From: Progne subis subis
Taxonomy: Eukaryota; Chordata; Aves; Passeriformes; Hirundinidae
Assembly (NCBI GenBank): GCA_022316685.1
Contig: JAKJHU010000305.1
Coordinates: 177,303-241,302 of the forward strand
Length of the DNA stretch: 64,000 bases
Direction of reading: 5' to 3'
In this document: positions 18,609 through 58,140 of the stretch, in pieces
How positions within the stretch are numbered: position 1 is the stretch's first letter
Layout: each line of letters opens with the position of its first letter
Translations under genes and position numbers: made by a program
The notes under the pieces: generated by a model
The model's database searches: none
What the model saw: the letters and a program-made list of their open reading frames with translations, nothing else
What the model was told of the DNA's origin: nothing

Positions 18609-19074
18609 ATACAAGATTTATCCAAAAAGATGTATTCTATTACCATCTGTGAACACCAGCTTGGGCAGGTTGTTTATCTCTTCCATGACCCATTCCTCAT
18701 ATCTCTGAGGGGGATCTTCACTTAATGGCCCAGCTGTGTAAAACCAAATCGGGCAGTGTTCTTTATCTCTTCCATGACTCATCCTCCCTCCAGGGAGATA
18801 TCTTCTGTTAATGGGCCATTGCCACTTTGGGAAGGGCTCTGGTGACCCAGGTTCCTGTGACCCACGCTGAGAAGTCACCTGTCCCTTTCTCTGCCCCTGG
18901 CAATGATGTGAGGTGGGGCTGAAGAACATGAGGGTCTGGCCATGGTCCCATCATTGTATTTCAGCCCATCTCAGGTCATTTCTGGCTGGGCTCTGCCCCA
19001 GCCCGCAGAGTGTGACCTCAGCCCTGACTCTGTCACAGCCGCTGTGCCTGAGCCCTGCAAAGCCTAAAGGTCAC

Positions 19075-20651
19075 TGTCATGCGTTCGCACACTTTGGTTT
19101 TTAGTTAGGGAGGAATGTGAAGTATTACCCTGTCAGGACCCCAGAAAGAGTTTTAGAAAGGACAAGGACCTATCAGAAGCTGGTTTGAGATACTGGCACC
19201 TGCTTTGGCCACTGAGAATGTTGAATGCGACTTTGGGCAGTACCCATATAAATCCTGGGTTTGTTCAGGTCAGGCCCTTTTCCTCCTGCTCAGCTGAACA
19301 GGTAACATCCAGTGGGTCCTACTGCTCCCCACACCCCACCTCCCCCTTCGGGGGGAAGCTCGCCCGAGGCCCAGCCGGACTCCATCGGCTCCCCGGGGGG
19401 AGGAGAGGTTGCAGCTTAACATCAACCACTTTGAAAAAACCTCCCCAGAGACCCCAGAGCAGGGAGGGATCTCCCCTGATAACAACTCTGGGCCCGGTTT
19501 GGCCGAGGCTGCCCCGATTGTCACCGAGGGGTGGGCAGAGCTCTCCTTCCACTCCCCTCCTCCGGTGTCTTCCAGACGGAGAAGAAAGAGTGGAGGGAGG
19601 AAACCAGGCTGATCTGAAATGGAGAGACTGCTGCCTAGAGTAGAAATCACATGGCCACTGCAGGCCTGGGCAGAGTTAACCCTGTCCTGGCAACATGGAG
19701 CTTCCAAGGCCTGACCCTTCCCTGAGAGAGAAAAGAAAGAGACAGAGTGGACGTAGAAAAGACGTCGCATGAAGTCAGTGGAGCAGGAGTGAAAGAACTG
19801 ATAAAGATTATTAGAAGAGGGATTGAGGATGTGGACATTTTTAACCAAGCTTTCCTGGTGTAAACGATGGAGAAATGGACTGTTTCTTGTAACGTCCTAA
19901 TGTTGTTTGGAGGAATGCTAATTCTAGTCAAAGTTGGGGATTGATATGATTGAGATTTAAGTGAGAATCTTAAAGCCCCTCACTCCTGGGGTAAAAGGAG
20001 GTCTCAGCCTTTGAGACCAAGATGATTTTAGAGAGAAAGTGATTTGAAGCCCTCGGCTCTTGGGGTAAAAGGAGGTCTTCATTTCTTTTGAGATAAAGAC
20101 ACTTTTAGAGATAGCAGAGAATCCTTGTTTTATACTAGAAGAAGCTTTCTTAAACAGTACCCCAGATACACTGAGAGGCCCATGAGTAGCCAGGGGAAAG
20201 GCTGCTAATGGGTGGAACAGCACAATCTGCAAAAACTCCAAGCAGTTGTAAATTTGTGACATTGAGAGCCCCAGGACTGTTTTTGTCTTGTGGCGAATGT
20301 GTCCATAAGACTCTAGAGAGACTCCTCTCCCAAAGTGGTGAAAGATTATGTTTAAATGGTGAAACTGATTGAAAATCACAGGTTGTGTCAATGTTGTTTG
20401 TAAGAAAGTTAACAGTTTGTAAGGGAAGGGAAGAGTGTTTTGAAGTTGCATTTTGGTTTTTTTTGAGTGAGGTTTTTTTTCCATCTGTTCTTAACTTTTC
20501 CATTCTTCTAGTGTGTGTTAATAAAACTGTTTACTTTTTAAGCTTGAGCCTGCTTTGTTTCTTCTGATCCTCTCCCACAAAAAGAGAGTAAACACTAAGA
20601 CCACTACACTAAATTTACCAAATAAAATTCAACAAATGTGTAGTCACTACA
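19075..20651 (+). mobile_element. Solo LTR, ~1.58 kb (inverted copy)
   Basis: This is the mirror of 353-1927, beginning TGTCATGCG and ending CACTACA, 1577 bases. CATATAAATCCTGGG near 19250 is the likely TATA region, and GTTAATAAAACTG near 20516-20528 is a likely polyadenylation signal. It carries no viral genes. The flanks match those of the other copy because the whole arm was duplicated. Confidence 0.6.
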
Positions 20652-21001
20652 TTAATTAGTGTTTCTGCCCTGTTTTAACTAAAATCATTACACCTTCCTA
20701 TGGAAAAGAACTTTCCTTCTTGTCTAGGTGCCCATGGCCACAATTGGTGTTCCACCTCCAGCATTGCCTGTTGCGAGAGACTGGAGGAGATTGTTGGCTG
20801 GAAACATTTTGTGTGTGAGGGAGGAAGGGGCAGCTCCAGCCTTGCCCTGCCCTGAAACCCCAGCACTGCCCTGCCCTGTAACCCCAATCCCCCAGAGCCT
20901 CTATCCCAGCCCAGCAGTGAATGCCAATCCCTGGCACACCAAAGGCAATGCTCCACAGCCACCTCTGCAGCCCCCAGCCCATCTCCTGAGAGACCAAGTG
21001 A

Positions 21002-26031: not shown

Positions 26032-26640
26032 GTTGGCTGGAAGTGTTGATCTGCTGGAGGGTAGGAGAGCTGTGCACAGGGCCCTGGACAGGCTGGATCC
26101 AGGAAGCCAAATCCAACAATGTGAGGTTTAACAAGTCCAGATATTGAGTCCTGCACTTTGGCCACAACAACCCCTGAAGTGGTGCAGGCTGGGGACAGAG
26201 TGGCTGGACAGCAGCCAGGCAGAAAGGGACTTGCATGGACTGATGGACAGCAGGCTGGACATGAGCCAGCAGTGTGCCCAGGTGGCCAAGAAGGCCAATG
26301 GCTCCTGGCCTGGATCAGGGACAGTGTGGGCAGCAGGAGCAGGGCAGTGATTCTTCCCCTGTGCTCGGCACTGGTTGGGCAGCACATCGAGTGCTGTGTC
26401 CAGTTCTGGGCCCCCCAATTAAGAAAGGACATGGAGGGGCTGGAGCGTGTCCTGAGAAGAACAACAATGTTTGTGAGGGGACTGGAACACAAGTCCTGTG
26501 AGGAGAACCTGAGGATGCTGGGGTTGTTTATCCTGAAGAAGAGGCTCAAGGGAGGCATGGCAGTGTCAGGGCAGAGGTTGGACTTGATGATCTCCAAGGT
26601 GTTCTCCAACCTTGCTGATTCTGTGATTCTCTGAAAACAC
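26032..26640 (+). mobile_element. CR1 LINE 3' fragment
   Basis: CR1 coding-end and 3' UTR sequence is recognisable: CCAAATCCAACAATGTGAGG, TGGCCACAACAACCCC, GTGGCCAAGAAGGCCAATGG, TCTGGGCCCCCCAATTAAG, and the terminal TTCTGTGATTCTCTGA. Its second half corresponds to 2972-3450, the start of copy A. Confidence 0.8.
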
Positions 26641-29600
26641 CCTTGCAGCAGTTGCAGGATGAGCCCTGGGCCTCCTCTCCAGAAGCTCCAGCATCCCAGG
26701 TGCCTCAGCTTCTCCTCACAGCCCCAAATCCCATCCTGCCAGTCCTGCAGAGCCTCTGCAGCTCCTCCTCCTTGCCCAGAACTGGGAGCCCCAGAGCCAG
26801 ACACAGCAGCCCAGATGTGCCCCCCTGGCCTGTGGTGCCTCTGGCAAGGGAGCAGCACGAGGCACTGCAGGAGCATGCAGACAATTCCTGAAGCACATGG
26901 AGGATGATCCTGCTCCCCAAAGGACATTCCCATGGTGCCAGCTCAGGACCTGAAATGAGTAATGGGGCCAGAGAGGAAAGAGCAACCAGAGATGGGCTGT
27001 TTGAAGGAGAGGGAAGAGGAGTGGACAATAGGAAGAAATTTGTAACAGGATGGGGAAAGAAAGCCAACATGATGCAAAGGAAAGGCTCAGGGCAGTTTGG
27101 GACTGGCTGCCAGGCAGCCCCGGCTCTGAGCAACAACATCTGCAGAAGCACAGGAAACTCACAGCTCATGGGAACAAACTTTCTGGATGACTTCAGAGGC
27201 CACCACAAAGCTGAGTGGTTTCCCTGCTGTCCCCCAGCCCTTCCTGGCCCCAGGAGCTGATGGCATTTGTGCTCCCTCAGGTTCATCTCCCCACACCAAC
27301 ACCACGGGGGTGCTGATGCCTGCTCTGGGCAGTGCACACAGGGGCTCCTGAGCCAGTGCTGCCGTGCCTGTGCCTGCAAGGATGCGGCGCCTGTGTGAGC
27401 TGGGGGAGAGGCCAGGGCTGCAGAGGGGGGATGTTGTTGGCAGGTGCATGAGGACGCTCTGGGACTGCTGCCCTGGGGTGTCCAGCGCAGTGGGGATGGA
27501 TCAGCCCCTGCTCTGCTGCTCCTTCCCGTCTCCCCAGGGACCTTGCAGAGCCCCAGCCATGCTGTTTGCCCCCATCTTGCCCATGGCCACCCTGGGGCTG
27601 CTCACGGGGCTTTTCTCTGCTGAGCATTGGCCTGGGCGTGTTCTGGAGAGAGCCTGGGCAAGGAGCCTGGAGCCCCCAGGCCCTGCCCTGAGGCGTCAGC
27701 GCTGCCCCAGCAGTGCCCATGGCCTGTCCCTGCTGCAGCCCCGGCACTGCCACCCCCAGCACTGTGCCCGGCCCCGAGAGCACTCAGGCCCTACAGCAAC
27801 AGCAGGGCCAGGAGGGCAGCGGGGCAGGGGCACGGGAGCAGCACTGGCAACACCAAGTGCTGCTGCTCCTGGGCACAGCTGCTGTGCCAGCACTGATCTG
27901 CCCCCAGCTCTGCACACAGACATTGCTGCTGCAGCTGCAGAGAAGGGAACAAAAGGGGAATCTCTGCAGAAAACTTTGCTAAGGGGAGATCCTCTTTTTC
28001 CTGTAAAGGTAACAGGAGTGCAGGCCCTCGTCAGCACAGTCTGTGGCCACAGGGAAGTTGGAGAGAAACAAAATGAGAAATGGCAAAAGCAATGAGATTT
28101 TTTTGGGCAATTTAAAAATATATAATAGAGAGGGAAAAAAAAAAAAAGAAAAAAAACAAAAACAAAAACAAAAACAAAGAAGAAACATGAAGTATTAAAA
28201 ATGACTTTTATTACAAGTGATTTGCAGAAACTGGCCAGCAGTTCAATGTTCCTGAAACCATCCAGTCATCAGCCTCTGCACTGCAGCCTTGAGCTCCTGG
28301 TTCCTCAGGCTGTAGATGAGGGGGTTCAGGGCTGGAGGCACCACTGAGTACAGAACTGACAGGGCCAGATCCAGGGATGGGGAGGAGATAGAGGGGGGCT
28401 TCAGGTAGGCAAAAAAGCCAGTGCTGAGGAACAGGGAGACCACAGCCAGGTGAGGGAGGCAGGTGGAAAAGGCTTTGTGCCGTCCCTGCTCAGAGGGGAT
28501 CCTCAGCACAGCCCTGAAGATCTGCACATAGGAGAAAACAATGAACAGAAAACAACCGAGTCCTAAACAGCACTAATTGCAATGAGCCCAAGTTCCCTGA
28601 GATACGGATTTGGAGCAGGAGAGCTTGAGGATCTCTGGGATTTCACAGAAGAACTGGCCCAGGGCATTGCCATGGCACAGGGGCAGGGAAAATGTATTGG
28701 CCGTGTGCAGCAGTGAATAGAGAAAGGCACTGGCCCAGGCAGCTGCTGCCATGTGGGCACAAGCTCTGCTGCCCAGGAGGGTCCCATAGTGCAGGGGTTT
28801 GCAGATGGACACGTAGCGGTCATAGCACATGATGGTCAGGAGGACTAAGATCTTCTGTCATAAAGAAGGAAAAGAAAAAGAGCTGTGCAGCACATCCTGT
28901 GTAGGAGATGGTCCTGGTGTCCCAGAGGGAATTGTGCATGGCTTTGGGGACAGTGGTGAGGATGGAGCCCAGGTCGGTGAGGGCCAGGTTGAGCAGGAAG
29001 AAGAACATGGGCGTGTGCAGGAGGTGGCCGCAGGCTACGGCGCTGATGATGAGGCCGTTGGCCAGGAGGGCAGCCAGGGAGATGCCCAGGAAGAGGCAGA
29101 AGTGCAGGAGCTGCAGCTGCCGCGTGTCTGCCAATGCCAGCAGGAGGAAGTGGCTGATGGAGCTGCTGTTGGACATTTGCTGAGAATGGACATGGAGATC
29201 TGAAAAAAAGGAATCATGGAATAGTTTCAGTTCTGGAGAGGCACTTTCAATATCCCAGCACAGCTTGGTGACACTTTCCCCCCACTGCCTGCCCAGGGCT
29301 CTGCTGCCTGGAGCTGTCCCTGCCTGCAGCTGCTTCCCTGTGCCCAGGGCTGGGCCCTGCCAGTGCTGCCAGAGCCCAGCCCAGCTCTGGGGGCTCAGCT
29401 CTGCCCTGCAGAGCCCTCCCAGCTCAGGCACTGCCCAGGGGCAGCTCTGGCTCTGCAGGCTCTGATGGCAACCTCAGAGCAACCCTGAGGAGGCTGGAAA
29501 AGTGACACTGGTGCTGCCTGCAAGGGACCCTCTGCTGTTTTCTGTCACTGCCTGGTTTATTAAGATCTGAGAGAAAATTGTTTTATTTTTCTCACCTGAA

Positions 29601-43189: not shown

Positions 43190-44096
43190 ACACCTCTCAA
43201 TAAGAAGAAAACAATAAAATTAAATGAATAAATAGAAATACAGTATCAATAAATATAATTTAATATGAAAAATTAATAATAATGGGAAATAAATTATTAA
43301 AGAAATAATATTTGATCTTTTAGTTTGAAAAATATTTCCCTGCCTTTGAGGCTCCTACAACAATATTATATTATCATAATGAATATATTAGAAATACAAT
43401 TATTAATGTAATATAAAAATTAAGATTCCTATAAATAAGAAAAAAATAAAATTAAATTAATAAATAGAAACATAGTATCAATAAATATAACTTGGTAAAA
43501 ATACTTAAAAATAATGATAAATTAATTAATAATGAAATTATATTTGACCTTTTAATTTGAAAAAATTAACCCTCCTATTGAGGTTATAATCGTAATAATA
43601 ATAGTAATATTATTGTTATAATTAATAATAATAATAATGAATTATTAATTATTAGTGTATTATAATTAATATAAGCATTATAATTAATATGATATTATAT
43701 ACTATTATATGCTATGATAAAATATAATATAATATACAAATAAAAAATAAAACAATAAAGTAAAATTAATAAAGATAAATATTTGAACAATACCTATATT
43801 ATAATGAAAATGAGGAAGTATAATATTAAATAATTGAATAAATTAATAAATAATATCTGATCTTTTAATTTAAAAAGTATTTCCCTGCCTTTGAGGCTCA
43901 TATAACATTATATTATTATTATTATTATTATTACTACTATTATTATTATCATTATTATCATCATCATTATCATTATTATCATTAGCAATATAATAAAAAT
44001 ATAATAAAAAATGTCGTATAATAATGAAGAAACAAATAAATAAGAAAAATGAAGGTGATTTTTGAAAGGAAGAAAAACAAAATGAAAACAAAACCA
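43190..44096. other. AT-rich low-complexity DNA
   Basis: Almost pure A/T with many AATAAT and ATTATT strings, including an ATT-type microsatellite at 43911-43986. No gene. The last ~45 bases (AAGGTGATTTTTGAAAGG...) resemble the leader next to the ERV-B 5' LTR (49150-49168). Confidence 0.85.
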
Positions 44097-44419
44097 CGGG
44101 GAACAGCCAGAGTCAAAGCATCTTCTTCACAGAAGAGGTGGTGAATGCTCCGTTTATTGAGGGTACACAGGGTTCTTTTATACATATATCATTCTTGTGC
44201 ACAAGCTGTTCACACAGCATTTTGCTACTCTCTATTGGCTAGTGTTATCTGCATAAGCATTCCTTTGCAGTTACCTCTTTACACTTTGTTGAGGGAAAAA
44301 GCTGGTTCTCAGGCTCACTGTCCTGGTTCTCCATCCATCGTCCTTGACAGTGCTAAAACAACAGAACTCTCCCAGCATTGTCAGGCCTCTCTGTGTCTGT
44401 CTCCAAAAATCCTGCTACA
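44097..44419 (-). repeat. ERV-B 3' LTR
   Basis: On the minus strand it begins TGTAGCAGGATTTTTGG. It contains CAATAAACGG as a polyadenylation signal and ends CTGTTCCCCG, where the other copy ends in CA. It is collinear with 49169-49536, with a ~45 base deletion. Confidence 0.85.
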
Positions 44420-44440
44420 ATTCCCCTTTTTTCTTTTGCA
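44420..44440 (-). other. ERV-B polypurine tract
   Basis: On the minus strand AAAAGAAAAAAGGGGAAT lies directly before the 3' LTR. Confidence 0.75.
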
Positions 44441-44448
44441 CAAGCTAA

Positions 44449-45438
44449 GCATTAGTTATTGTCTTACACAGCATATTCTTAATACATGACATTACACAAC
44501 TTAGTACTAATAATCTTACCACTACAAGTAATAATATAACAAACACTTGTTTAATGACACACTTCAGCTATTTTGTAATCCTAAGGCTACTTAACTAATC
44601 TCTAAGTACATTATCACTTTCTTTTCAATCATGTCATTTGTTTTTCATTAATTGCAATTTTTGTGAATAGATCCAGAATGGTCAGACAGGTTCATGCAAC
44701 ACATTCCTTCAAACTCTTCACACCCATGGTTATGTACTAAAACAAAACCAATCGCAGCACGGTTTTGTAAAACAGCATGATTAACACTGGTAACATCCAC
44801 AGATAGCTCATCTAAAATTTGACTAGTTAAATTCAAATCTGATTTGGTCCAGCATGCCATCTGCTTCAATGTGGTCATTGCTCTGGCGCTGTTGCTCCTG
44901 GTATAAACATGGATGTTAACACTGTCCCAGCTTGGGACCAGATTTTAGGATATTTTATGTCTGTACAGTCCAACTCATGTATAGCATGTTTTCTCTGAGT
45001 GACTTTTGCTAAAGTCATCAATGCAAGTTATGTTAGGGTGAAACAGGGCAAGCTTCCCTAAATAGCATAGGGCCTCCATTGTGGGCTGGCTGGGAACTCC
45101 AGTCCAAGCGCGGTCCCCACATATCAAAAATGTTCCTGATGGAAGGCATCACACTGGTTTGCCACAGTAAAATTCAGCATTGTCTCATTTTTCACATAAC
45201 CTTTAAAACTGTGAGGGCTCCAAAGGGGTGTTCCTATCAAACAAGTTCTGAATGGGTCTTGGGGATTGGCCAGGCTAAGGCAAATAGAATCGTGTCCAGT
45301 CACATTGGCAAATGTCACCCATACATTAGTTCTCATAGAAAATGAATGAGCTAGTTGAGAAGATCTTGCAACACTTGTTGACACCATGAGCAAAAGGCAC
45401 ACAACACGCAAGAACATCTTACCATGTGGAACTGCCAC
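44449..45438 (-). pseudogene. ERV-B env remnant
   Basis: The first part (45438-45124) has a start, a hydrophobic signal segment (LRVVCLLLMVSTSVA) and the beginning of a surface subunit with NVT and NET/NFT glycosylation sites, then a stop. Most of the surface subunit and the cleavage and fusion region are absent. From about 44878 the transmembrane subunit ectodomain is readable. It includes the LQNRAAI segment of the immunosuppressive region and a CX6CC motif (CEEFEGMCC), both arranged as in alpharetroviral env. A hydrophobic anchor-like stretch follows in another frame at ~44460-44560. The frame is broken and no functional envelope is encoded. Confidence 0.8.
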
Positions 45439-45881
45439 ATCTCTCTCTTAATGGCCCATGCTGTCTGCGCAAATCTCCAATCTGCTACTCCACCAAAATC
45501 ATCAGGAACAGGGTTAGGTATTCCCAACACTACCTGTGCCGCTTGATAAAAGGCACCAAGGGTACCACTATAGCAATGGTCACACAAACCACCCTCACAC
45601 CAAAGCTTTGGTGTCTCTCTCCCAAATTGTGCACCACAAACTCCGCAGCTCACTTCTATAACTATTACTCTCTGACACTGAGGACACTCTTTTTCTTGCC
45701 ACTCATGCAAGCCCTGGGAAAGTTCCAATGATCCCAAGGGGCCTTGGTGACCAATAATGCACGCTACAACCCAGTCTGGGTCAGGAGGGCGTTGTTCACC
45801 AGCGGCCTCAACCACCAGCTGTCTCAGCAAGGACTTGATGATCCTTCTTCCTTCTTTTCCTTCCTTGCCGGCCGAGTCCAT
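45351..45881 (-). CDS. Unrecognised cysteine-rich ORF overlapping env start
   Basis: This is an uninterrupted 176-codon frame in an otherwise decayed provirus. The N-terminus (residues 1-35) is charged, with a basic, possibly helical segment. The middle has cysteines at 66, 69, 79, 82, 95, 100 and 103, that is CPQC, CGVC and C-x4-C-x2-C, which look like a zinc-binding fold. The C-terminus (residues 134-147) is CSCVLCAFCSWC-like. The last 29 codons overlap the env start in another frame. Its place between the pol end and env is that of retroviral accessory genes. I do not recognise a family. Alternatives are a displaced pol or env exon read out of frame, or chance survival. The start ATG at 45881 is inferred. 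Confidence 0.5.
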   Translation of the reverse strand: MDSAGKEGKEGRRIIKSLLRQLVVEAAGEQRPPDPDWVVACIIGHQGPLGSLELSQGLHEWQEKECPQCQRVIVIEVSCGVCGAQFGRETPKLWCEGGLCDHCYSGTLGAFYQAAQVVLGIPNPVPDDFGGVADWRFAQTAWAIKREMWQFHMVRCSCVLCAFCSWCQQVLQDLLN

Positions 45882-46627
45882 TTACTCGGTTCCCATTGTG
45901 GTCCAGATGCAAAGCTCAAAGGCTTGGGTGCAGCTGTTGTCAAATTCACCTCAGAGGTGCCCTGATCGCTGACCAGCAGGTTTCAGAGTGACAGATTCCA
46001 GGGCCCTTGGAGATCTGTCAGTCTGGGATGAATTTGAGATCAGCTGCTCTGCCCAGAAGTGTTCTTCTTATCTTCTCCGGAACTGACCATCGGGCTTTTT
46101 ATCTTCAGAGGGCTTGTGGTGTTCACTGCATGCAGAAGGCTTACTGTGACCCTGTTCAGCATGAAACCACTTTGTCAGCAATGCATGAGTAAAAACCACC
46201 CCATCTTGGATCTTACTTGGCAGCTGCTGCAGCCACACAACTTAGTAAGGATATCTCTGGGTTTTCACCAGCTTAAGTCTTTAGTAAATAAATTCCAAGT
46301 GGACACTAAACAAGTATTTCACTAAGAGATGATGAAATGTTAAAATTAAAAGCAAGTCAGATTGCAGCTGTAATTATACTACATTAGAAACTCCAGTTGG
46401 TGGGGATCCATTCACTATATAGAGAGAAATTAGTAATCAAGGTAAGATTAGTAATCAAGGACAGAACATTTGTTTCCTGCATGCTTTTCCAGGCTTGGAA
46501 CCAACAGAGTTGACTACATGGAGAGTTGACTAGGGTGAACTTGGAACTCACTCTCTCTGGCAGGAGACTAGTTAAGAAGTGTTACTGATAACAAAGAAGA
46601 AAAATTATACAACATTGATTATTACAA

Positions 46628-46660
<33 letters not shown>

Positions 46661-46783
46661 TACTACTACTATTATTATTATTACTTTGTTCTCATCTGCT
46701 TTTAACATTTGTCTCTTACAAGTCCTCATCCATTCCTGTAGAAACCTAACCCTTTTTCCATTCCCCTGTGGCAGCTCCCATCC
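45882..46783 (-). other. ERV-B stretch between CEPT1 and the cysteine-rich ORF
   Basis: No clear gene. It may hold CEPT1 3' untranslated sequence next to the stop, and possibly an integrase tail nearer the ORF (a readable WLQQLPSKIQDGVVFTHALL frame around 46080-46240). A (TAA)n tract at 46630-46684, read on the minus strand about 100 bases after the CEPT1 stop, could be a decayed poly(A) tail or an independent microsatellite. Confidence 0.4.
46630..46684. repeat. ATT/ACT trinucleotide microsatellite
   Basis: TTATTATTATT interrupted by TACTACTACTAC over 55 bases. Confidence 0.95.
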
Positions 46784-47775
46784 CTAGTGATGGTTCGAGG
46801 GCATGGGGCAGCCCTTGATGCAGAACACGTGGATGTGCAGGTGGGCAGCAATTCTGGCTGCACACGCTGACACAGTATCGGAGCAGGTCAATCAGGGACA
46901 GGATCAGGGCAATCCAGAGGACAATATACTCATCAATAAAGCTGTTAAAATGCTTGGTCAAGGAACAGCAATGCTGGGCCTATGAATGCTGTGTCATATA
47001 GATGCATTTCACTCTTGGTCACTGTGGGCAACCACCAGTTGATTTGTGATCTTGGCAGACCCAAAGCCAAAAGTCAGGATGTAGAGGCAGAGGTGCCTCT
47101 CAAAGAGCTGCACAGCAGATTTCTTGTAGATCATTGCAGCCGAGGCAATCACGGAGCCAATATGGAGAAAAGGTGAGAGGACACTTGTTCCTGCTGAAGT
47201 GGATCCATTTTTGCCAACTTCAGTTTGTACCGGAGAATATGGTTCCTGCCACAGTACAAGGAGCTGGGGGTATTTTTACCTGAATGTTCAGTCTTAGAAT
47301 CAGAGATTGCTAAAAAGGTGGTTCTCCAATCACTGCCAGTAAATGCATGATTATTGTGAAGACTTGTACCTTAGTCACATCAATCATGCCGAAGTGCAGA
47401 GTTCTTGAGATGTACATCTGTCACTGTGTGCAGTAAAACATGAATGTCACAGCAAAACAACAGAAGAACATCCAGTCAGGGTTGTTGTCCAGCTGCACAA
47501 CCATACAAGTTCCCAAAACCACAAAGACTGTGGACAATGAATCACAGCTATGATCAAAAAGCTCTGTTAACAGAGTGCTGCTATTTGTCCTTCTTGCTTG
47601 TTTTCCATCTGTAGCATTGAGGGACTGGAATGCCACAGGCACAAGCAATGAATGTCCCGGAAGGCGTCTGCCTTTGAAGATGTTGAGCAGTAACATACTA
47701 ATAACAGAGTTGTAAATATATTTATTAACAGTCAGATGATGATGATCAGACTGGGGGAAGTCCAGGCTGGAGAAT
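46784..47775 (-). pseudogene. CEPT1: CEPT1 retro-copy (codons ~85 to stop) inside ERV-B
   Basis: CEPT1 is the ER/nuclear-membrane enzyme that makes phosphatidylcholine and phosphatidylethanolamine from CDP-choline or CDP-ethanolamine and diacylglycerol. Here ~990 bases carry its C-terminal three quarters with no introns. Recognisable parts are [73 protein letters not shown] and a terminal SNHH plus stop (TAG at 46784-46786). Residue choices ([10 protein letters not shown]) favour CEPT1 over CHPT1. The CDP-alcohol phosphotransferase motif keeps DG, AR and the last two Asp, but its central Gly is Thr. Frameshifts and stops interrupt it. The first ~84 codons are absent, replaced by viral gag in the same orientation. 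Confidence 0.85.
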
Positions 47776-49150
47776 GGATATCTTCAGTATGAATCCAATC
47801 TAACATTGTTCGAGCACTTTTCAGATTTCAAGCTGTGCTCTTTTACTGTGGTTTTTTTTTTGCTTGTTGCAAGATTTTCTATTCATGCTGCTCACACACA
47901 GGATTGCCATCTCTGAACATGACAGGACATGCTACAGGACATGCCATGTGTCCTGCGGGTTCCCACTGTCCTTCTAGTATAGCATCACCTATAATTTTGG
48001 ACCATCGAGTCACAGGGGGGGCAGGCAAAAGTGTTGCCTGGGAACTGCTTTCTGCAGTTTGTTCTAGAAGTTGTTGCATTGGAGTTAACTGGGAGCTGAA
48101 TGATGTTGGCTCCTCCTGATTTTTAGCATTTATTGTAGATAATTCTTGGGCTTTTTCCAGTACCAGCTTAGTTGCTGCTTGCCCTCACTCATCCAGGCAT
48201 TGCATCACTGCCTGAATTTGCTCAGTCAGTTCTTTTAAACCAATCGTGGGTTCTGCTGTGGGTTCTGCTATGGGTTCTGCTCCACCACTGGGTCCTCCTC
48301 TAATTCGTCCGGCAGTGGAATATTGTCGGGAGAAGGTGGTCGACAGCAGGGGTCACGGGTTCCCCTCTCTTGGTCGACCGGTGTCTCTTTGGGCACAGCC
48401 GGGTAGGGGGGGCACTCGGTGCATGTGTTGTGGGAGCAGCGGCACTGGGAGCGGTGGTGGCCCCCACCCCGGCCCATGGTGGCAGTGGCGGTGGCGGCAG
48501 GGGCGGTGTGAACTCCCGGGGGTCACTTTCTCCTCATCCTCCCTTGTTGCTGCGGGGTGGAGAGGGTGGCGGGCACCATGGAGCCGCTGCCACGGAGGGA
48601 CGGGGGCAGTGCGTGGGCCGGGAGCAGCGAGCGGGGCATCGGCCAGTGACGGTGCCGGGGCGCTGGAGGCGGCGGGAGGGCATGGCAGGGGCCCCACGGC
48701 ACTTTCCCGACTTTGCAGTGCCGCGGAGTTGTTAAATGTCCATTTCCCTGCGCCCAGTTAATCAGCTTTTGCAGTACTTTTTCTGCTACTGCTTTTCCTC
48801 TCTCAGAGTATAATAATAAGCAACTTCAATGTGGCAGCAAATTCGCACTCCATGCTTGCCTCATCAATGGGGCAGGGAAGGGAGTACTCAGAGCCTTCCA
48901 CCTGTTTTCAAGAAAACTGCCCCTGTTCCCCTTATCAGCTCAGCCTCGCACTCTTTGCAAGGACGGCGAGCTTCTACCTCAATGCTGATGCATCTCTTGG
49001 CAGATCAGCGTCTGACTTCTATTTTCTGGAGGGTCTCACCTCAGTGCAGCTGCATCTGTCAGCAATCCAGCATCTATCTACTCAGCATCCCACTGCTAAT
49101 TTCTCCTCCAGGTCATCATCCCAAGGTCTGATGTTCAGTGCCAATTAAAG
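47776..49150 (-). pseudogene. ERV-B gag remnant
   Basis: From right to left: a poorly readable matrix part (a RGKAVAEKVLQKLINWAQG segment at ~48740-48800), a GC- and proline-rich linker (48250-48700), and the beginning of the capsid (RWSKIIGDAILEGQWEPAG, then a frame break). The last gag-like residues ([12 protein letters not shown]) lie at ~47777-47812, where the CEPT1 sequence starts. The capsid rest, nucleocapsid and protease are missing. This order is typical of avian class II gag. Confidence 0.7.
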
Positions 49151-49168
49151 GTGATTTTGAAAAAAACA

Positions 49169-49536
49169 TGGGGAACAGCCAGAGTCAAACATCTTCTTCA
49201 CAGAAGTAGTGGTGAATGTTCATTTTATTGAGGGTACAAAGGGTTCTTTTATAAATACATCATTCTAGTGCATAAGCTGTTCACACGGCATTTTACTACA
49301 TGTCATTGGCTATCTCCTCCTGTCCACGAGCTCCAGGCAGCTATACTATTGGCTAGTGTTATCTGCATAAGCATTCCTTTGCAGTTACCTGTTTACACTT
49401 TGTTGAGAGGCCATCAGCTTGTTCCCAGGCTCTTTGTCCTGGTTCTCAGGCTCAACATCCTTGACAGTGCTGAAACAACAGAACTTTCCAAGCACTGGAA
49501 GGCCTCTCTGCGTCTGTCTCCAAAAATCCTGCTACA
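49169..49536 (-). repeat. ERV-B 5' LTR
   Basis: On the minus strand it runs from TGTAGCAGGATTTTTGG to GGCTGTTCCCCA. It has CAATAAAATG near its 3' third. The adjacent leader has TTGGCACTGAAC about 23 bases inside, possibly a degenerated lysine-type primer site. Confidence 0.85.
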
Positions 49537-50407
49537 GTCAAGGAACAAACAATCGTGCTTCAGCTGATTGTCATCAAAAACAATCCCAAGACGCTCCATG
49601 AACTGCAACAGCTCTGTGGTTCCATTAATTGGGTTCGACCCCTTCTTGGAATTTCCCCAGAAGACCTCGCTCCACTTTTTAACCTTCTGTGAGGGAGCTG
49701 CGAACTCAGTTCTCCTAGGAGCTTGACCCCTGAGGCAAGAAAGGCAATTACCTGCATCCAAGAGGTTCTGTCAGCCTGACAGGCCCACAGGTATGATCCA
49801 CCTTTGCCGTTTCTGCTTGCAGCGTTAAGTAGAGTCCCACATTGGAGTGGACTGATTTTTCAATGGGACCCAGGACTTAAAAGACCAGTTGGTCATCCTC
49901 AAATAGGTTTTCCTTCAAGCACAACCAACTAAAAGAGTAACCACACCGCAAGGAACCATGGCAGCAGTCATCTGTAAGGGCAGGGCTCGCTTCCGCTCTC
50001 TTGTGGGGTGTGACTTTGCATGCATCTACATGCCATTGGCAACTACCGAGGAGCTAGAGTTTCTGCTCCAAAATAATGACAACCTTCAGTTCGCCCTAGA
50101 TATCTATCCAGGAAAAATTTCCATCCATATCCTGGCCACAAATTATTTAAAGCAGAACTTCATTTGGTTCCCAAATTCATTCAAGGTAAAACTCCTCTCG
50201 AAGCTGGGACAGTCTTTACAGACGGCTCAGAGTCTTCTCATAAGTCAGTCATGACTTGGAAAGACACTAGGACACAGAAGTGGGAGTCTGACGTCCGAGT
50301 AGTGGAAGGATCTCCACAAATTGCTGAGATGGCAGCTGTCGTCAGGGCATTAGAGAAGTTCAAAGACCAACCGTTTAACCTAATCACAGATTCAGCATAT
50401 GTAGCTG
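49537..50407 (+). pseudogene. ERV-C: pol fragment (RT connection and RNase H)
   Basis: The plus strand encodes retroviral pol. There is a connection-domain segment (CGSINWVRPLLGISPEDLAPLF near 49605-49670), then stops and shifts, then a cleaner RNase H N-terminal part in 50164-50404. That part shows the catalytic Asp (VFTDGS), Glu (EMAAVVRALEKF) and Asp (ITDSAYVA). The fragment abuts the ERV-B LTR on the left and the ERV-D LTR on the right without a gap, so both ends were removed. It is a class II-type pol in opposite orientation to its neighbours. Confidence 0.75.
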
Positions 50408-51067
50408 TGTCCTGGTTTGGAGACAAATTTGGGGGAAAACCCCTGTATAGGATCCCTCCGGGAAGCAAACCCAAGTGGCCCCTCCCTCCAACCAGTCCGA
50501 AAAAAAAACCTTTGTGGAGAAAAGTGGAAAAAACTATTTTACTAAACAAATAAAGTGCATACAAGTATAAAGAATGAATAATATGAAACAATAAAACCTC
50601 TCGTTCTGGAGTGAGATGGCCAATTGAGAAAGTTCTTGCCGTGGGTGGAGCTCGGCTCTCTCTCAGTCTCTCCTCAGTCCCAGTCCCTCCGGCGCTGCTG
50701 GAAAATTCCGAGGTCCAGGCCCCAGTGGGCCGCAGGTGCAGCCCCCAGTGCTCCCCTGGGTTTTCAGTCCAGAGCAGGTTTAAACAGTTCCAAGAAAAAA
50801 GAAAGAAAAAAAACAGTCCAGGGAACTTCTCTGCCCTAGCTAGCTGAAACTAACTAAAAGCAAAAAGATCTCTGTCCTGCAGTGCTCTCCAAAGCCTCCG
50901 CCGAACACCGTCCGGAGAAGAATGTGGAGGAGTCGGGCAGTTTTCTCAAAACAAACTCCGCGCTTCTCCTTGCTCGTAGAACCAGTCTTAAAGGCACAGG
51001 ACTCAATATGCAGCACAAACAGAACAGACGATTGGGGATACAAGCATCATAAAGTTACCCTAGGACA
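50408..51067 (-). repeat. ERV-D 3' LTR
   Basis: 660 bases, closely matching 56385-57051. It includes an A-rich segment and a C/T-rich segment with CTCTCTCTCAGTCTCTCC. Confidence 0.9.
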
Positions 51068-51138: not shown

Positions 51139-54100
51139 CTATATAAAAACAATATGCAATATACAGCTACATACAGTGGCAGTACCATTCAGCACACAAC
51201 GATAATTACACACGGTTCTCACCCAACAATCAGATCTCCCTGGGGTACACATCGTGTGGTTCCATCTTTCTGCATTACCCACCATGTGCAGCCTGGTCCC
51301 TGAGCAAAGACAATCCCACGGATGGGATCCTCTGTACTTGAAGCAGGATTGATCCAAACTGTCTTCCCTAACAAACCTCTTACATGTACTACTGGGACTT
51401 TCTCTCCATCTACTGTATGTAGGGGCTCAGATTGGGCAGGGCCTGCTCGGTTGGTGGAACCTTGGGTGTTAACTAACCAGGTGGCCTTTGCTAGATGCTA
51501 CTCCCATCCTCTTTTGAATCATCCTCTACCTAGTGCTTTAGGGTGGTTTTTAGCAGTCTATCGTATCTTTCTACTTTTCCCTGAAGCTGATGCATGAGAG
51601 GGGATATGGTACACCCACTCAATGCCATGTTCCCTAGCCCAGTTGTTGATGAGGCTGTTCTTGAAATGAGTTCTATTGTCTGACTCAATCTTCTTAGGGG
51701 TACCTATGCTTCTAAAGAACTTGCTTTTCAAGGCCTAGAATGGTGTTACGGGCTGTAGCATGGGGCACAGGGTAGGTCTCCAGCCATCCAGTTGTGGCTT
51801 CCACCATGGTCAGCACGTAGCGCTTGCCTTGGCGGGTTTGGGGAAGGGTGATGTAGTCAATCTGCCAGGCTTCCCCGTACTTATACTTGGACCATCGCCC
51901 GCCATACCATAGGGGCTTCACCCACTTGGCCTGCTTGATGGCACAGTCATGGATAACCTGAGAAATACTGTCCATGGTTAGATCCACCCCTCGGTCTCGT
52001 GCCCACTTATAGGTGGCATCTCTGCCCTGATGACCTGAGGCATCATGGGCCCGTCGAGCTAGGAACAGTTCTCCCTTGTGTTGCTAATCTAAGTCTATCT
52101 TTGACATGTCTGTCTTTGCAGCTTGATCTACCTGCTCGTTGTTTCGGTGCTCTTCATTAGCCCGACTCTTGGGGACATGGGCATCTACATGACGGACTTT
52201 GACAGGTAGCTTTCTCTACCCGAGTGGCAATGACCTTCCACTCATCTGCAGCTCAGATTGGCTTTTCTCTGTGCTGCTAATTGGCCTTTTTCTACTTCTC
52301 CAGCCATCCCCACAGAGCATTGGCTACTATTCACGAATCAGTGTAGAGGTAGAGCTTTGGCCACTTTCTCTCTTTCAGCAATGTCCAGGGCCAGTTGAAC
52401 AGCTTTGAGTTCAGCAAGTTGGCTTGACCCACCTTCTCCTTCAGTGGCTTGTGCAACCTGTTGTGTGGGGCTCCATACAGCTGCTTTTCACTTTCGTTTC
52501 ATCCTCAATGATGCGGCAGGAACCGTCAGTGAAAAGAGCGTAGCAAGTTTCTTCTGCTGGCAGTTGGTTGTATGGTGGAGCTTTTGTAGCACGTGTTACT
52601 TGTTCTTGCTCTTCTTCATCTATGAGACTAAAGTTTTCACTTTCTGGCTAGTTTGTAATTATTTCTAAAATCTCAGGGCAATTTGGGTTTCTAATGCGGG
52701 TGCGCTGAGTGATGAGGGCAATCCATTTGCTCCATGTGGCATTGGTGGCATGGTGGGTAGAGGGAACTTCCGCTTTGAACATCCATCCCAGCACTGGTAG
52801 TCGAGGTGCCGGCAGGAATTGTGTTTCAGTGCCTACTACTTCTGAGGCGGTTTGAACTCCTTCATAGGCGGCCAAGATTTCCTTCTCTGTTGGAGTGTAG
52901 TTGGCTTCAGACCCTCCATAGCTTCGGCTCCAGAATCCCAGTGGTCGGCTCCGAGTCTCCCCAGGCACTTCTGCCAAAGGCTTCCAGGACAGGCCATTGT
53001 TCCCGGCTGCTGAGTAGAGCACATTCTTCACATCTTGGTCCCATCCTGACTGGGCCAAGGGCTACTGCATGAGCGATCTCCTGCTTGATCTGGGACAAAG
53101 GCTTGTTGCTGTTTCAGGGCCCCAGTGGAAATCGTTCTTCTTGCGGGTAACATGGGTAGAGAGGGCTTCACAATCTGGCTGTACTTCAGGAATGTGCATC
53201 TTCCTAGAAACCTTATGGCGCCTAGGAAAGCTTGTGTTTCCCTTTTGTTGGTTGGTGGACACATTGCTGTGATCTTGTTGATGACTTCAGTGGGAATCTG
53301 ACGCCTTCCATCATTGCCACTTTACTTCCTAGAAACTGGATCTCTCGAGCAGGTCCCTTAACTTTGCCTCTTCTTGATAGCAAAGTCAGCTTTCAGGAGA
53401 ATCTGGATGATCTTTCTCTCTTTCTCAAACACTTCTATTGCTGTGTTTCCCCACACAATGATGTCATCAATGTACTGTAGATGTTCTGGAGCTTACTCTT
53501 TTCTAGTGCAGCCTTGATCAGTCCATGGCAGATGGTGGGGCTGTGTTTCTACTCTTGGGGCAGTCGGTTCTAGGTGTACTGCACGCCCTTTCCAGGTGAA
53601 AGCAAACTGAGGCCTGCATTCTGCGGCCAGAGGAATGGAGAAAAATGCGTTAGCAATGTCAATAGTGGCATACCATTTTGCTGCCTTGGACTCCAGCTCG
53701 TACTGGAGTTCCAGCATGTCTGGCACAGCAGCGCTCAATGGTGGAGTCACTTCGTTCAAGGCTCGGTAGTCCACAGTCAATCTCCATTCTCCATCAGACT
53801 TGCGCACAGGCCAGATGGGGCTATTGAAGGGTGAGTGGGTTTTGCTGACCACCCCTTGGGTCTCCAGATCACGGATCATCTTGTGGATGGGAATCACAGC
53901 ATCTCAAGTTGTTCTGTATTGTCGGCGATGCACTGTTGAAGTGGCAATTGGCACTTGTTGCTCTTCCACCTTCAGAAGACCTACAGCAGATGGGTTCTCT
54001 GATAATCCAGGCAAGGTATTCAACTGCTTAACATCCCCTGTCTCTACAGCTGCTATCTCGAATGCCCACCTAAATCCCTTCGGGTCTTTGAAATACCCAT

Positions 54101-54310
54101 TTCGGAGGAAGTCTATGCCCAAAATGCATGGAGCCTCTGGGCCAGTTACAATAGGGTGTCTCTTCCGCTTATTTCCAGTCAGGCTCACATCAGCTTCCAC
54201 CAAAGTAAAATCTTGTGAACTCCTTGTCTCTCCAGCAATGGAAACAGATTCTTCCCCACATGTCTTGATGGGAGTAATGTGCACTGTGCATCAGTGTCAA
54301 CTAAGGCCTC
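51139..54310 (-). pseudogene. ERV-D pro-pol remnant
   Basis: Order on the minus strand: protease with VDTDAQCTLL (Asp-Thr-Asp at 54290-54298) and the ILGIDFL motif, reverse transcriptase (53900-53060) with the YIDD box at ~53460-53475, then connection and RNase H in broken frames. Integrase follows (51987-51600) with its first catalytic Asp in WQIDYITL; at the second site the SDN-Gly is SDN-Arg. The C-terminal domain ends near 51160. A small in-frame deletion removes one zinc-binding cysteine before the integrase core. Stops and indels occur throughout. Confidence 0.8.
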
Positions 54311-55914
54311 ATATTTTTGTGGTTCTGATGTGCCAGGCCAACGAATCCACACAGTCCAAAAAACACGGTTTTCCCTAGCCTCTACCTGGCTAGAAGCAGG
54401 GCCCCTCTAAGCCTGATTATCCCTATTTCCCTGGGTAACCGGAGCTGCTTCCTTCTTGCTAGAACTGCCTCTCACAGTCTTGCCATCCAACAATTCATGC
54501 AGCCGTTGTGTCATAGCATCAGTAGATTCTCCATCCCATCTTTTCATGTTTTCTCCACAATCACGCAGGAAGGACCACAGCTTAGCCCGTGGATGCCTTT
54601 TCCCTCTCTATCTAGGGAACGTTTGCATGTGGTGCCAGAGCCCCTAACTTGTACTGCAGAGATCTGGAGAATGTTCTCCTTGAGTTCTTTGAGATCCTCC
54701 TCCATCTTGTCTGCTAATCCCCACACCTGTGTTTCCAAAGCTGCGATTCTTGCATGTGTTGGACCATGCACGGCATCTGCATATGTTCAGAGCTTCTTCG
54801 CCATATCAAGCACAGTCTCCTCTGTCTCATCCCGCTTCATTATTGCTAAAGCAGAGGAGTATTCTTGTGGCCCAAGTCGTACAAGTTTTCGCCACATTAC
54901 AGGTGTACATGGTACCAAGTCGGGGTTCCTAGTGTTTAGGTCATCTGAGAAGACAATCTCCGCCACTGCCATTTCTCTCAAGCGCTGAATCCCTTGTTCA
55001 ATGGTTTTCCACTGAGTTTGCTGCAGATAGAGATCGTCGGCACACAGATATCTTTGTGCCACACTTCCCAGGACCCGTTCCCAGAGACTGCAAGGACTAG
55101 CCTCCCTCATATTTCTTGGTCAATAACTGGATCATGTGATAGGGATCCAAGATGTCTCGCTTTAGTGCTATCCAGAATTGTAGCCTCGCCTGCAGCATCC
55201 CAAAGACGGACTAACCAACTAATTATAGATTCATCATGTCGTCGAGTATAATCCTTTCTTAGGCCACGAAGGTCCTTCAGGGAAAAGGACTCAATAGTAT
55301 CTCCTGATCTTGTAGCAGTTGGTCAGGCTCCTGATCTTGTAGCAGTTGGTTGGGCTCTTGATGTTGCAGCAGCTGGTTGGGCTCCTGATCTTGTAGCAGC
55401 TGGTTGGGCTTCTGATCGTGTGCTAGTTGGTTGGACTCCCGATCTTGTACCAGTTGGTTGGGCTTCTGATTCTGTATCAGTTGCTTCAGCTTCTGATTGT
55501 GTGTCAGTTGGTTTGACTCCTGACTGGGTGTCAGGAGGCACTGAGGATCTTTTACTTGAATCATCATCTACTGGTTGATCGGTTTTGTCCTGTGTGCTTT
55601 TTTTCCTTCTTTACTGCAGCAACTGCCGGTGTCTTAGCTTTACTGTCTGGTTTAGCTGCAGCCTGAATAGCTGTGGGGTTGGCTGCAGCCTGAGTGACTG
55701 ATTTATCTCCCTGCTCCCTTGCCTCTATCTGCTGCCCTACAGTGTTTAGCAGTGTGTGACTCATTCTAGAAAAGCTATAAACTATATAGAGGAAAGTCAC
55801 CAGGTGAAATACCAGGGAGGTGGGGTCTTTAACATTCAGGAGACTGAACATTCTCCAAAAGTGATGTAACTGACTTAAAAGAGAAGAAGGAAAAAAGAGG
55901 CTGAAGAGCCTCAT
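54311..55914 (-). pseudogene. ERV-D gag remnant
   Basis: A likely N-terminal part (from about MSHTLLNTVGQQIEAREQG, ~55767) is Ala- and Lys-rich. A Gln/Asn/Leu repeat region (55303-55545) follows, then a capsid-like segment at 54787-55110 (WRKLVRLGPQEYSSALAIM) and a coiled-coil-like part at 54544-54771. I see no zinc knuckle. Frames are interrupted several times. Confidence 0.55.
55303..55518 (-). repeat. 27-bp tandem repeat inside gag, 8 units
   Basis: On the plus strand units read CCTGATCTTGTAGCAGTTGG + TTGGGCT with variants, starting every 27 bases from 55303. On the minus strand they encode a nine-residue pattern, Asn-Gln-Leu-Leu-Gln-Asp-Gln-Glu-Pro. A partial ninth unit follows. Confidence 0.9.
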
Positions 55915-56356
55915 CTCCTACTCCTCCTCTAACAAACTGGGCGCAGTTATTGATAAATCTTTAAAACATGCTGCTGGAACTAGGACGCAGGGTAGGACGA
56001 AAAAACCATAAACTGAACATACCCAGAACAAACTCTAGTATCTTTACAAGCTTCTTGTAAACTATAATCACTGAACCTAGCAAAATAACTATTCTAATTT
56101 GTGCATATCTAGTGTAAAAGCTGTATGTTAAGGACAATATTGGAGCTATTTCTGGATAGGAAAACAAACTTAGGGACTAGAAAGGTATTAAGACTTCAAA
56201 AAAGCTTAGGGAACAGAAATGCAGAAAAGACTCTATTCTAAGAGACGTTAAGACTTTAAGAAGCAACATGGCCACTGTCTGTTTAATCCCTACCCAAAGG
56301 ACAACAAAAAAAATGCAGTTAATAGTAATTAATACAAGTTTTTTCTACTCTGTTTT

Positions 56357-56374
56357 GCCCCACGTTGGGCGCCA
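56357..56374 (-). other. ERV-D primer-binding site, tRNA-Lys(1,2)
   Basis: On the minus strand TGGCGCCCAACGTGGGGC is an exact 18-base match to the well-known lysine-1,2 primer site. It lies 10 bases inside the 5' LTR. This primer is used by foamy viruses, to which ERVL elements are related. Confidence 0.9.
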
Positions 56375-56384
56375 ATTAAGTGTA

Positions 56385-57051
56385 TGTCCTGGTTTGGAAA
56401 CAAATTTGGGGGAAAACCCCTGTATAGGATCCCTCTAGGAAGTCAAACCCAAGTGGCCCCTCCCTCTAACCAGTCTGGAAAAAAAAAAAAACCTTTGTGG
56501 AGAAAAGTGGAAAAAACTATTTTACTAAACAAATAAAGTGCATACAAGTATAAAGAATGAATAATATGAAACAATAAAACTTCTCGTTCTGGAGTGAGAT
56601 GGCAAATTGAGAAAGTCCTTGCCGTGGGTGGAGCTCGGCTCTCTCTCAGTCTCTCCTCAGTCCCAGTCCCTCCGGCGCTGCTGGAAAATGCCGAGCTCCA
56701 GGCCCCGGTGGGCCGCAGGTGCAGCCCCCAGGGCTCCCCTGGGTTTTCAGTCCAGAGCAGGTTTAAACAGTTCTAAGAAAAAAAGGAAGAAAAAAAAACC
56801 AGTCCAGGGAACTTCTCTGCCCTAGCTAGCTGAAATTAACTAAAAGCAAAAAGATCTCTGTCCTGCAGTGTCTCCAAACCTCCGCCGAACACCGTCCGGA
56901 GAAGAATGTGGAGGAGTCAGGCAGTTTTCTCAAAACAAACTCCGCGCTTCTCCTTGCTCGTAGAACCAGTCTTAAAGGCACAGGACTCAATATACAGCAC
57001 AAACAGAACAGACGATTGGGGATACAAGCATCATAAAGTTACCCTAGGACA
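56385..57051 (-). repeat. ERV-D 5' LTR
   Basis: 667 bases. Its outer end (57051) abuts class I gag sequence. Confidence 0.9.
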
Positions 57052-58140
57052 CCCTATATTCTGCCTCTTGGGCACTGCTTCCCAGATTCCTCGGATAATC
57101 ATCCACCAGAGATCACTCATATTCTGCCTGTGTCTTTCATTCTGATTATTCCAGCCTGGATCTTGCATAGGCCATTTCTGATTCCCCTGGTCTGGCCCCT
57201 GACATTCTCTATCCCAAACCCTTATCCCTGAATGTCTAATCTTTTCTCTTTCTTCCATGATAAACAAGATTCCTAAGATAGACTGCAGTTCCACCCAGGT
57301 GTATATATTTTGCCCCAAGAACTGATCTAATCTCTCTGTCACTCCAAGAGGATCCTCTAGCAGCCTGCCCAGCTCCTTCTTAAACTCCCTGACATCCCCT
57401 GTGTTCAGGGGAACACTCACATCACCAACAGGTCTCTGTTCTGGGTTTGCCATTGGAACTTTTCTAAGTGGGTATAGTCCATCTTCCATTTTTGCTTCCC
57501 CATCCCCATCATCACTTCTCCCCGTCCCCACACCTCTAGTTCTATGTGCTACTGGCTCCTCCTGAATAGGGGGTGTGTTTGCATTTACAGGAGGACCCTT
57601 GGGGGCTTGGGGTTGAACGGGCTGATTAGGTTGCCTATAAGGGGCTGGGAGGTGATCTAACGGATCCTAGGGCTCGTGTCTGTCTTTTTTGGCTGCTTGC
57701 CCTCTAATTTGTAAAGGATAGATTGGAAAATCCTTGATTCCTTGCCTTCGAGTGACAAATTGACCTTTTTCCATGGGAAGCCACAGGCCAGCATATTCGC
57801 TTTCTTCCTGATTGAAAGGTTTGTTTGAATTCACATACAAATTCAAAACCTGGCAAATCCAACCTTCAAAGGATCTGCACTTTGGCCAATATAAATTATC
57901 TTTCTGGATCATTTCCTTTGTCCATTCAAACATACAATAATTAATCATTTTCTGCTTACTTTTTCCTCTTCAGGATTCCCATGCATCCCAGTATCGTAAC
58001 ATCATCCCCAGTGGACTGTCCTGAGGGATGCTCCCCTTCTGAGAACCCCCCTCACAGTTCCCAGGTATACCAGGCTCTTGTCAATTTCCTTCATAATTCA
58101 CAGCCCCTGGTTCTAAGGAGTTAATTTTCCTTGGACTCAT
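57052..58140 (-). pseudogene. ERV-E: class I (gamma-like) gag remnant
   Basis: The minus strand reads as a gammaretrovirus-type gag. The matrix has SPLGMMLRYW and WTKEMIQKDNLYWPK (57667-58010). The capsid has EFKKELGRLLEDPLGVTERLDQF and FLGQNIYTWVELQSILGILF-like text at 57130-57430. The likely start ATG is 58138-58140; a stop follows after 19 codons. The gene is cut at 57052 by the ERV-D LTR, so the rest of gag, pol and env are missing. Confidence 0.75.

Follow-up and report, generated by a model that had tools for sequence, protein, structure and literature searches.

On the minus strand of the window, which is the whole 64,000-nucleotide stretch analysed from Progne subis subis, an old and decayed LTR-flanked retroviral element extends from 49536 to 44046. 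Its order is LTR, gag to mid-capsid, an intron-less copy of CEPT1, a stretch of ~0.9 kb, a cysteine-rich ORF, env remnants and LTR (Table 1), with the LTRs, gag, CEPT1 and env in one orientation. The same layout had been read from the letters of the sequence in an earlier note and is borne out by the LTR alignment, tblastn searches and the TM match; the span proposed there, 44097..49536, is right at the 49536 end, whereas at the other end the 3' LTR extends to about 44046 (by eye).

Table 1 Features of the retroviral element, by position in the window.
Feature	Position	Strand	Basis
5' LTR	49141..49536	minus	LTR pair alignment; 3' border approximate, by eye
gag: matrix-side region, linker, about first 40 positions of capsid N-terminal domain	47768..48688	minus	tblastn with swallow gag models
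gag-CEPT1 joint (gag SP joined to CEPT1 AW), in frame	47766..47776	minus	P0006 alignment, CEPT1 alignment, P0008
Intron-less CEPT1 copy, human residues 80-416 and stop codon	46784..47770	minus	tblastn with human and bird CEPT1
Stretch between CEPT1 stop and cysteine-rich ORF	45882..46783	minus	no match to fetched proteins or, above cut-off, to Pfam
Cysteine-rich ORF, 176 aa, open, overlaps env start	45351..45881	minus	87% identity to swallow P0001
env SU start remnant	45124..45447	minus	ORF; 34-aa match to P0005, 45327-45226, 44% identity, E 1e-5
env TM remnant, CX6CC type (motif by eye)	44648..44944	minus	match to 5h9c and 4jpr (ASLV TM)
Purine-rich tract before 3' LTR	about 44420-44437	minus	seen directly
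3' LTR	44046..44419	minus	LTR alignment; 3' border approximate, by eye

Both LTRs begin with TGTAGCAGG, as seen directly. Pairwise alignment of 49168-49536 with 44098-44419 gave 37 substitutions over 321 sites (K2P 0.126), which at the avian rate that we assume would correspond very roughly to 25 million years, a date that is not relied on. Directly after the 5' LTR is a stretch that, read by eye, we take to be PBS-like. A target-site duplication was not evident by eye at the LTR flanks, and no pol was recognised inside the element by Pfam searches of the ORFs or by blastx against the fetched proteins.

The gag part is broken by stops and frame changes; its name "matrix" comes from the earlier note and was assigned by no tool, and the gag piece had no PDB match at E<=1. 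In a gene model of the barn swallow, Hirundo rustica (P0006), the same gag runs on into a full capsid domain, without CEPT1, and covers positions 2-127 of the 128 of the Gag_p24 profile, while a second swallow model, P0008, covers only 2-40 (score 20.7, below the cut-off of 24). The alignment of P0006 to the window ends at 47768 and that of CEPT1 starts at 47770, both in one frame, in agreement with the proposal that CEPT1 begins where gag homology stops (~47775). P0008 runs straight across this joint, as the window does, and the gag-CEPT1 junction that was to be sought in another passerine is thereby seen in a barn swallow gene model. The two parents have one proline in common at the joint, the only similarity claimed there. 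The parental capsid tail (P0006 residues 195-294) had its best match in the window elsewhere, at E 0.18, and within 45882-46783 only one 11-residue match on the plus strand (E 6.9). The CEPT1 part before the joint likewise gave a best E of 0.038, elsewhere in the window, and one match of E 0.32 that falls inside gag (48747-48649).

Human CEPT1 matched the window at 47770-46787 on the minus strand over residues 80-416 (E 6e-88), with the stop codon next; residues 28-407 of the query agree with the solved chain 8gyw_B. Of the extent first suggested, from about codon 85 to the stop, the stop stands and the start is moved to residue 80 by alignment. One piece of the copy matches Pfam CDP-OH_P_transf (6e-07), and the copy carries several frame changes and internal stops. 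It is uninterrupted over three exon borders (after CDSLST, before IDVTE and before IPILN), inferred from differences among bird isoforms, as expected of the intron-less copy with fused borders that had been predicted. The element has the properties looked for in a retrovirus with a host cargo: LTRs at both ends, and a CEPT1 that lies in viral orientation, derives from mRNA, is 5'-truncated and is joined to gag, with viral genes lost.

The stretch that follows contains a TTA/TAA tandem array at 46630-46683. The eight ORFs in or overlapping 45882-46783 had no Pfam match above the curated cut-off, the ORF over the repeat array having five weak matches below it (E 0.02-0.085), and blastx of the stretch against the fetched proteins gave nothing. 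It is possibly CEPT1 3' UTR followed by viral leader, with the 3' joint between CEPT1 and virus somewhere inside. The cysteine-rich ORF aligns over 45354-45881 with the swallow model P0001 (87% identical), whose locus tag, DUI87_27320, adjoins that of the gag model P0007 (DUI87_27321) on an equal-sized contig. The ORF had one sub-cut-off Pfam match and weak PDB matches (E 0.19 and above), and AlphaFold2 models of two cysteine-rich ORF sequences were unusable (mean pLDDT 34.9). The env TM remnant matched ASLV TM (5h9c and 4jpr) at E 3e-18; this, together with a class II capsid in P0006, whose matches are weak (retroviral p27 1p7n, 1.7e-6; ERVK, 6.6e-5; Rous sarcoma virus p27 2x8q, 9.7e-5), assigns the element to an alpharetrovirus-related class II virus. 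In IMG/VR scans with P0001 and the env TM piece, none of the pattern matches (15 and 12, respectively) was confirmed.

In the H. rustica assembly nine gene models have CEPT1 of this type; they are spread over seven contigs (told apart by size), and five of the nine also contain the gag of the window element. All evidence from other loci consists of protein gene models of this one assembly; of the five that combine gag with CEPT1, four do so through predicted splicing, and a direct reading of the joint comes from P0008 alone. P0008 has the window's I-to-T change just past the joint, then a frame change into the same 15-residue tail, and none of 100 shuffled P0008 tails matched the window at E<=1e-3. 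P0002 has the window order, with gag at 48639-47894, CEPT1 at 47218-47024 and, after these, 19 residues of the env TM region at 44888-44832 (E 3e-5). At other loci the chimera is thus seen directly in the joint of P0008 and the order of P0002, and in the remaining seven protein models through ITNQ or shared sequence. Part of the 5' LTR lies upstream of CEPT1 in P0091 (29 aa, E 4e-12), the only swallow copy with a visible LTR; differing insertion sites were seen for none of these protein models.

The ITNQ motif is present in the window and in all eight swallow copies that cover the site, against ITNK in all 110 other proteins that fit the motif pattern. The pattern was unmatched in 12 of the 130 fetched proteins, two of them CEPT1-family matches (P0125 and P0129), and the comparison rests on the best 120 of 337 matches in the CEPT1 protein search. 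In a CEPT1 tree of 65-66 residues the window grouped with seven swallow copies in a single clade, apart from the 17 host sequences (support 0.879); P0011, missed by the cutting pattern, and P0008, which is without that region, were left out. In the gag tree, made from a cropped alignment freed of misaligned spliced tails (51-58 residues), the CEPT1-free P0006, which has a longer linker, groups with short-linker copies (support 0.845), two of which carry CEPT1 (P0008 and P0011), so that recombination with a helper, or several events, has to be reckoned with. A TGG-to-TAG stop common to P0018 and P0091 was dropped as a candidate, since both models are read in a different frame and leave the matter undecided.

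About 45 codons into CEPT1, and before its catalytic motif, the window and P0008 undergo the same frame change; in both the frame ends 15 residues past it, at a visible stop codon in the window and at the same residue, the end of the model, in P0008; these are the two copies that cover the site. An internal frame-changing loss is common to the window, P0091 and P0107, with P0091 aligning gap-free across it and P0107 having the identical string there. An open reading frame through the CEPT1 functional domain was not found, and what we take to be the catalytic motif glycine is T in the window copy. From the frame change common to the window and P0008, the ancestor of the seen copies probably made a truncated Gag to which a short membrane segment of CEPT1 was attached. 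It could hardly have made the enzyme from that fusion frame, and the suggestion of a phospholipid-synthesis enzyme once carried in fusion with gag finds no support, because the common frame change precedes the catalytic motif. P0008 is an open 274-residue gene model in the barn swallow; that the joint is a selected and still expressed protein, a truncated Gag with one CEPT1 membrane helix aiding the spread of the defective virus or now interfering with related viruses in swallows, is highly improbable.

The layout in the window, the joint in P0008 and the derived changes shared with further swallow models most likely go back to one event in which an alpharetrovirus-related virus captured the CEPT1 mRNA of a bird, and to later multiplication of the product. 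Spliced CEPT1 mRNA would have been picked up by a class II bird retrovirus of this kind, and a reverse transcriptase template switch in the capsid part of gag would have created the in-frame joint, with loss of the remaining gag and of pol. The resulting virus, presumably defective and helper-dependent, may then have been copied to many loci. CEPT1 would have been mostly passenger sequence, because its frame appears already lost in the ancestor of the seen copies. The same joint and later changes at other swallow loci support the view of the earlier note that the host piece moved as part of a virus. Such a capture fits the retrocopying by LTR elements, with template switches at microsimilarities, that has been reported for chicken too (PMC5408686). 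The retrocopies of Tan and coworkers, as presented there, are similarly mRNA copies inside an LTR element with a proposed switch at short similarity; the CEPT1 element differs from them in having chimera relatives at several loci with later changes in common.

If the virus had captured the transcript of an already broken CEPT1 pseudogene, and not the mRNA of the working gene, this would account for the post-joint frame change in both covering copies and for the internal loss in each of the three reading across it; an intact captured version was not seen among the copies. However, these changes may just as well have arisen while the virus itself was being copied, and the diagnostic substitution occurs in no non-ERV protein fetched (best 120 of 337 matches), so that a pseudogene source is considered unlikely. 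Spread by segmental or tandem duplication of a single chimeric locus, in place of viral replication, appears distinctly unlikely. Two swallow pairs do have nearby locus tags on equal-sized contigs (DUI87_19121/19140 and 03431/03471), the order in P0091 is integrase, this LTR, CEPT1, as in the window, and three of the 12 models tested (P0005, P0014 and P0091) hold pieces of a neighbouring retrovirus-like element (window 57.4-51.3 kb), which could mean shared flanks. Against duplication, the swallow models are spread over seven contigs, CEPT1 is carried by two gag linker types, and P0002 and P0008 are without a match to the neighbouring element at E<=1e-4. The place of that element also differs: in P0005 and P0014 it comes after gag or CEPT1, in P0091 and the window before, although a tandem array could still yield both orders.

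A processed CEPT1 pseudogene made by a LINE (CR1-type) and inserted into the gag of one provirus, which then multiplied with it, is a further alternative. Truncation at the 5' end, as seen here, is also typical of LINE retrocopies, and the TAA array, from about 100 bases past the CEPT1 stop, might be what is left of a tail. Gag sequence next to the joint and the post-CEPT1 stretch have 14 9-mers in common with <=1 mismatch (3.1 expected from simple shuffles) and two 14-mers with <=2 mismatches (0.08 expected); the joint itself falls within one 9-base near-match, at 46567. These short repeats, however, are scattered and overlapping and their counts therefore inflated; only two of the 14 9-mers reach the joint, where the proline is common to gag and CEPT1, and none abuts the TAA array. 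Moreover, gag was not seen resuming after CEPT1 and no pol was recognised, neither of which is explained by a simple insertion, and a LINE origin is very unlikely.

Avian transducing retroviruses carry gag-host gene fusions with pol lost, and the known cargos of tumour viruses are growth-control genes. The CEPT1 element is like them in its LTR, its truncated gag in frame with a 5'-truncated spliced host gene, its lack of recognisable pol, its env remnant and its related TM. The comparison with their layout in the earlier note holds, with the joint at 47768/47770, the capsid cut at about profile position 40 and no pol recognised. It is unlike them in that its cargo is neither a growth-control gene nor intact and the only known form of the virus is an endogenous fossil. 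Tumour viruses, found via disease, mainly show disease-causing cargos, so fossils such as the CEPT1 element sample the rest; here a clear fossil case of bird host-gene capture has a phospholipid-synthesis enzyme as cargo. That the copies have the loss of the CEPT1 frame in common suggests that a captured gene need not be useful to be amplified.

Captured host genes are also carried by the crocodilian endogenous retroviruses CrocERV29 (KIT-ligand) and CrocERV31 (nectin3) (PMC4299795). In both lineages a single host mRNA was captured and is present in several of the viral copies, as here, and in CrocERV31 a viral gene is replaced too, whereas the nine KIT-ligand copies of CrocERV29 are open and under purifying selection by the paper's test. 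The CEPT1 element differs from both, as described there, in that its cargo is a lipid enzyme, is fused to gag and is disrupted in every copy seen. Among the matches listed, no CEPT1 capture was found in titles or abstracts of the open-access literature. CEPT1 and an endogenous retrovirus are mentioned together in open-access literature that, by title, concerns the placenta and the marsupial uterus.

The gag alignment with P0006, a barn swallow (Hirundo rustica) gene model without CEPT1 that was treated as the parental gag, ends at 47768 of the window and CEPT1 starts at 47770, with one reading frame for both. This bears out the earlier note, in which CEPT1 was said to begin where gag homology ends. 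P0006 covers positions 2-127 of the 128 in the Gag_p24 profile, a complete capsid N-terminal domain. In P0008, a swallow model that reads straight across the gag-CEPT1 joint, only positions 2-40 of the profile are matched (score 20.7, below the curated cut-off of 24) and CEPT1 follows thereafter. The remainder of the parental capsid (P0006 residues 195-294) was not found in the window, where matches were at chance level (best E 0.18).

The CEPT1 copy (47770-46787) corresponds to human CEPT1 from residue 80 to the last residue, followed by the stop codon (E 6e-88); it thus reaches the stop as previously proposed, with a start at residue 80 and not at about codon 85. The copy is disrupted by frame changes and stops. 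It crosses without interruption three exon borders implied by differences between bird isoforms, so it derives from spliced RNA, in agreement with its earlier description as intron-less. The two LTRs differ by 37 substitutions over 321 aligned sites in a pairwise alignment (K2P 0.126), and no target-site duplication was evident at the LTR flanks within the window. The cysteine-rich ORF contains the motifs CPQC, CGVC and CDHC and is 87% identical to the swallow model P0001; no known family was found for it. When 45001-46600 was shuffled 300 times, an ORF of at least its length turned up in 4 cases.

Features of the element and of the surrounding window
Feature	Position	Strand	Remarks
LTR-flanked element	49536-44046	-	two LTRs around gag, CEPT1, cysteine-rich ORF and env remnants
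Cysteine-rich ORF, 176 aa	45351-45881	-	intact; overlaps env start; rest of element broken
Further retrovirus-like element (RT thumb, RNase H)	49474-50553	+	near 5' LTR border
Second retrovirus-like element	51285-57666	-	gag p30-like, RT, integrase
Direct repeat, ~669 bases	50408-51067 and 56385-57051		95.8% identity
Olfactory receptor-like ORFs (two)	5003-5965 and 28820-29473	-	by eye
C2H2 zinc-finger-like ORF	14043-15362	-	by eye
Large segmental repeat, inverted	1-3560 with 17462-21002		~92% identity
Large segmental repeat, direct	2970-5957 with 26185-29195		~90% identity

The env TM remnant matches the TM of avian sarcoma/leukosis virus (E 3e-18), and the P0006 capsid has weak matches to a retroviral p27 and to the capsids of ERVK and Rous sarcoma virus (E 1.7e-6 to 9.7e-5), which places the virus close to the group to which the classic avian transducing viruses belong.

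Thirteen relatives of the gag were found from 61 candidates, every one in the barn swallow, and the evidence from other loci consists of gene models (proteins) of one assembly of that species. Five of the thirteen run on into CEPT1 (P0002, P0004, P0008, P0011 and P0014), one (P0006) proceeds as a normal capsid, and seven stop or splice elsewhere ahead of the joint. The CEPT1 part of P0004 was used as a query and the best 120 of 337 hits were examined; among these were at least four further swallow models related to the CEPT1 copy of the window (P0018, P0020, P0091 and P0107) and none of this type from other species, a result that has little bearing on spread among birds as annotation often omits repeats. 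The ITNQ form of the CEPT1 motif, present in the window, was found in 8 of 130 fetched proteins, all of them swallow models of the element type, while 110 carry ITNK and 12 did not match the motif pattern; P0008 is without that part of CEPT1. No related DNA was found in IMG/VR.

The earlier note had proposed a search for the same gag-CEPT1 junction elsewhere, and among the swallow protein models P0008 has the joint of the window, followed as there by the I-to-T change and by a frame change that leads to an identical tail. An internal loss, equivalent to human residues 265-273, is aligned across without gaps between P0091 and the window, and the string at this site is identical in P0107. The order gag, CEPT1, env TM of the window recurs in P0002 (env of 19 residues, E 3e-5), and in P0091 the LTR of the element lies upstream of CEPT1. 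The gag linker is of two types, one seven residues shorter, and CEPT1 is present with both. In a tree of cropped gag sequences, the copies with the shorter linker group together (support 0.980), and the CEPT1-free P0006 is the neighbour of this clade (support 0.845). The capture therefore either predates the split between the linker types or was followed by recombination with a helper.

The best supported origin is a template switch between viral RNA and CEPT1 mRNA as they were reverse-transcribed, which would have yielded a gag-CEPT1 chimera whose later copying would have been driven by a helper. PMC5408686 describes LTR-mediated retrocopying at microsimilarities, reported also for chicken, and the crocodilian ERVs of PMC4299795 offer a likeness, with host-gene captures present in multiple copies. 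Short repeats shared between the sequence on the gag flank of the joint and that past CEPT1 are more numerous than in simple shuffles, so that insertion of CEPT1 by a LINE, with later loss of the target-site duplication, keeps some standing as an unlikely origin. For the spread of the copies, segmental duplication is an unlikely route, kept in consideration because pieces of the neighbouring element at 51285-57666 are present in 3 of 12 swallow models and two pairs of models sit near each other. That no duplication was evident at the LTR flanks also counts against the best supported reading. The CEPT1 enzyme was probably not itself the cause of the spread, because the shared frame change sits ahead of the catalytic motif.

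The second retrovirus-like element, at 51285-57666, has swallow relatives that share a gene model with the gag or CEPT1 of the present element (P0005, P0014 and P0091). The direct repeat of ~669 bases is possibly a young LTR pair. With the RT of P0014 as the sole probe, the upstream half of the plus-strand element was not identified beside the 3' LTR. Both olfactory receptor-like ORFs lie on the minus strand of the window, and the tail of the swallow model P0012 matches its zinc-finger region.
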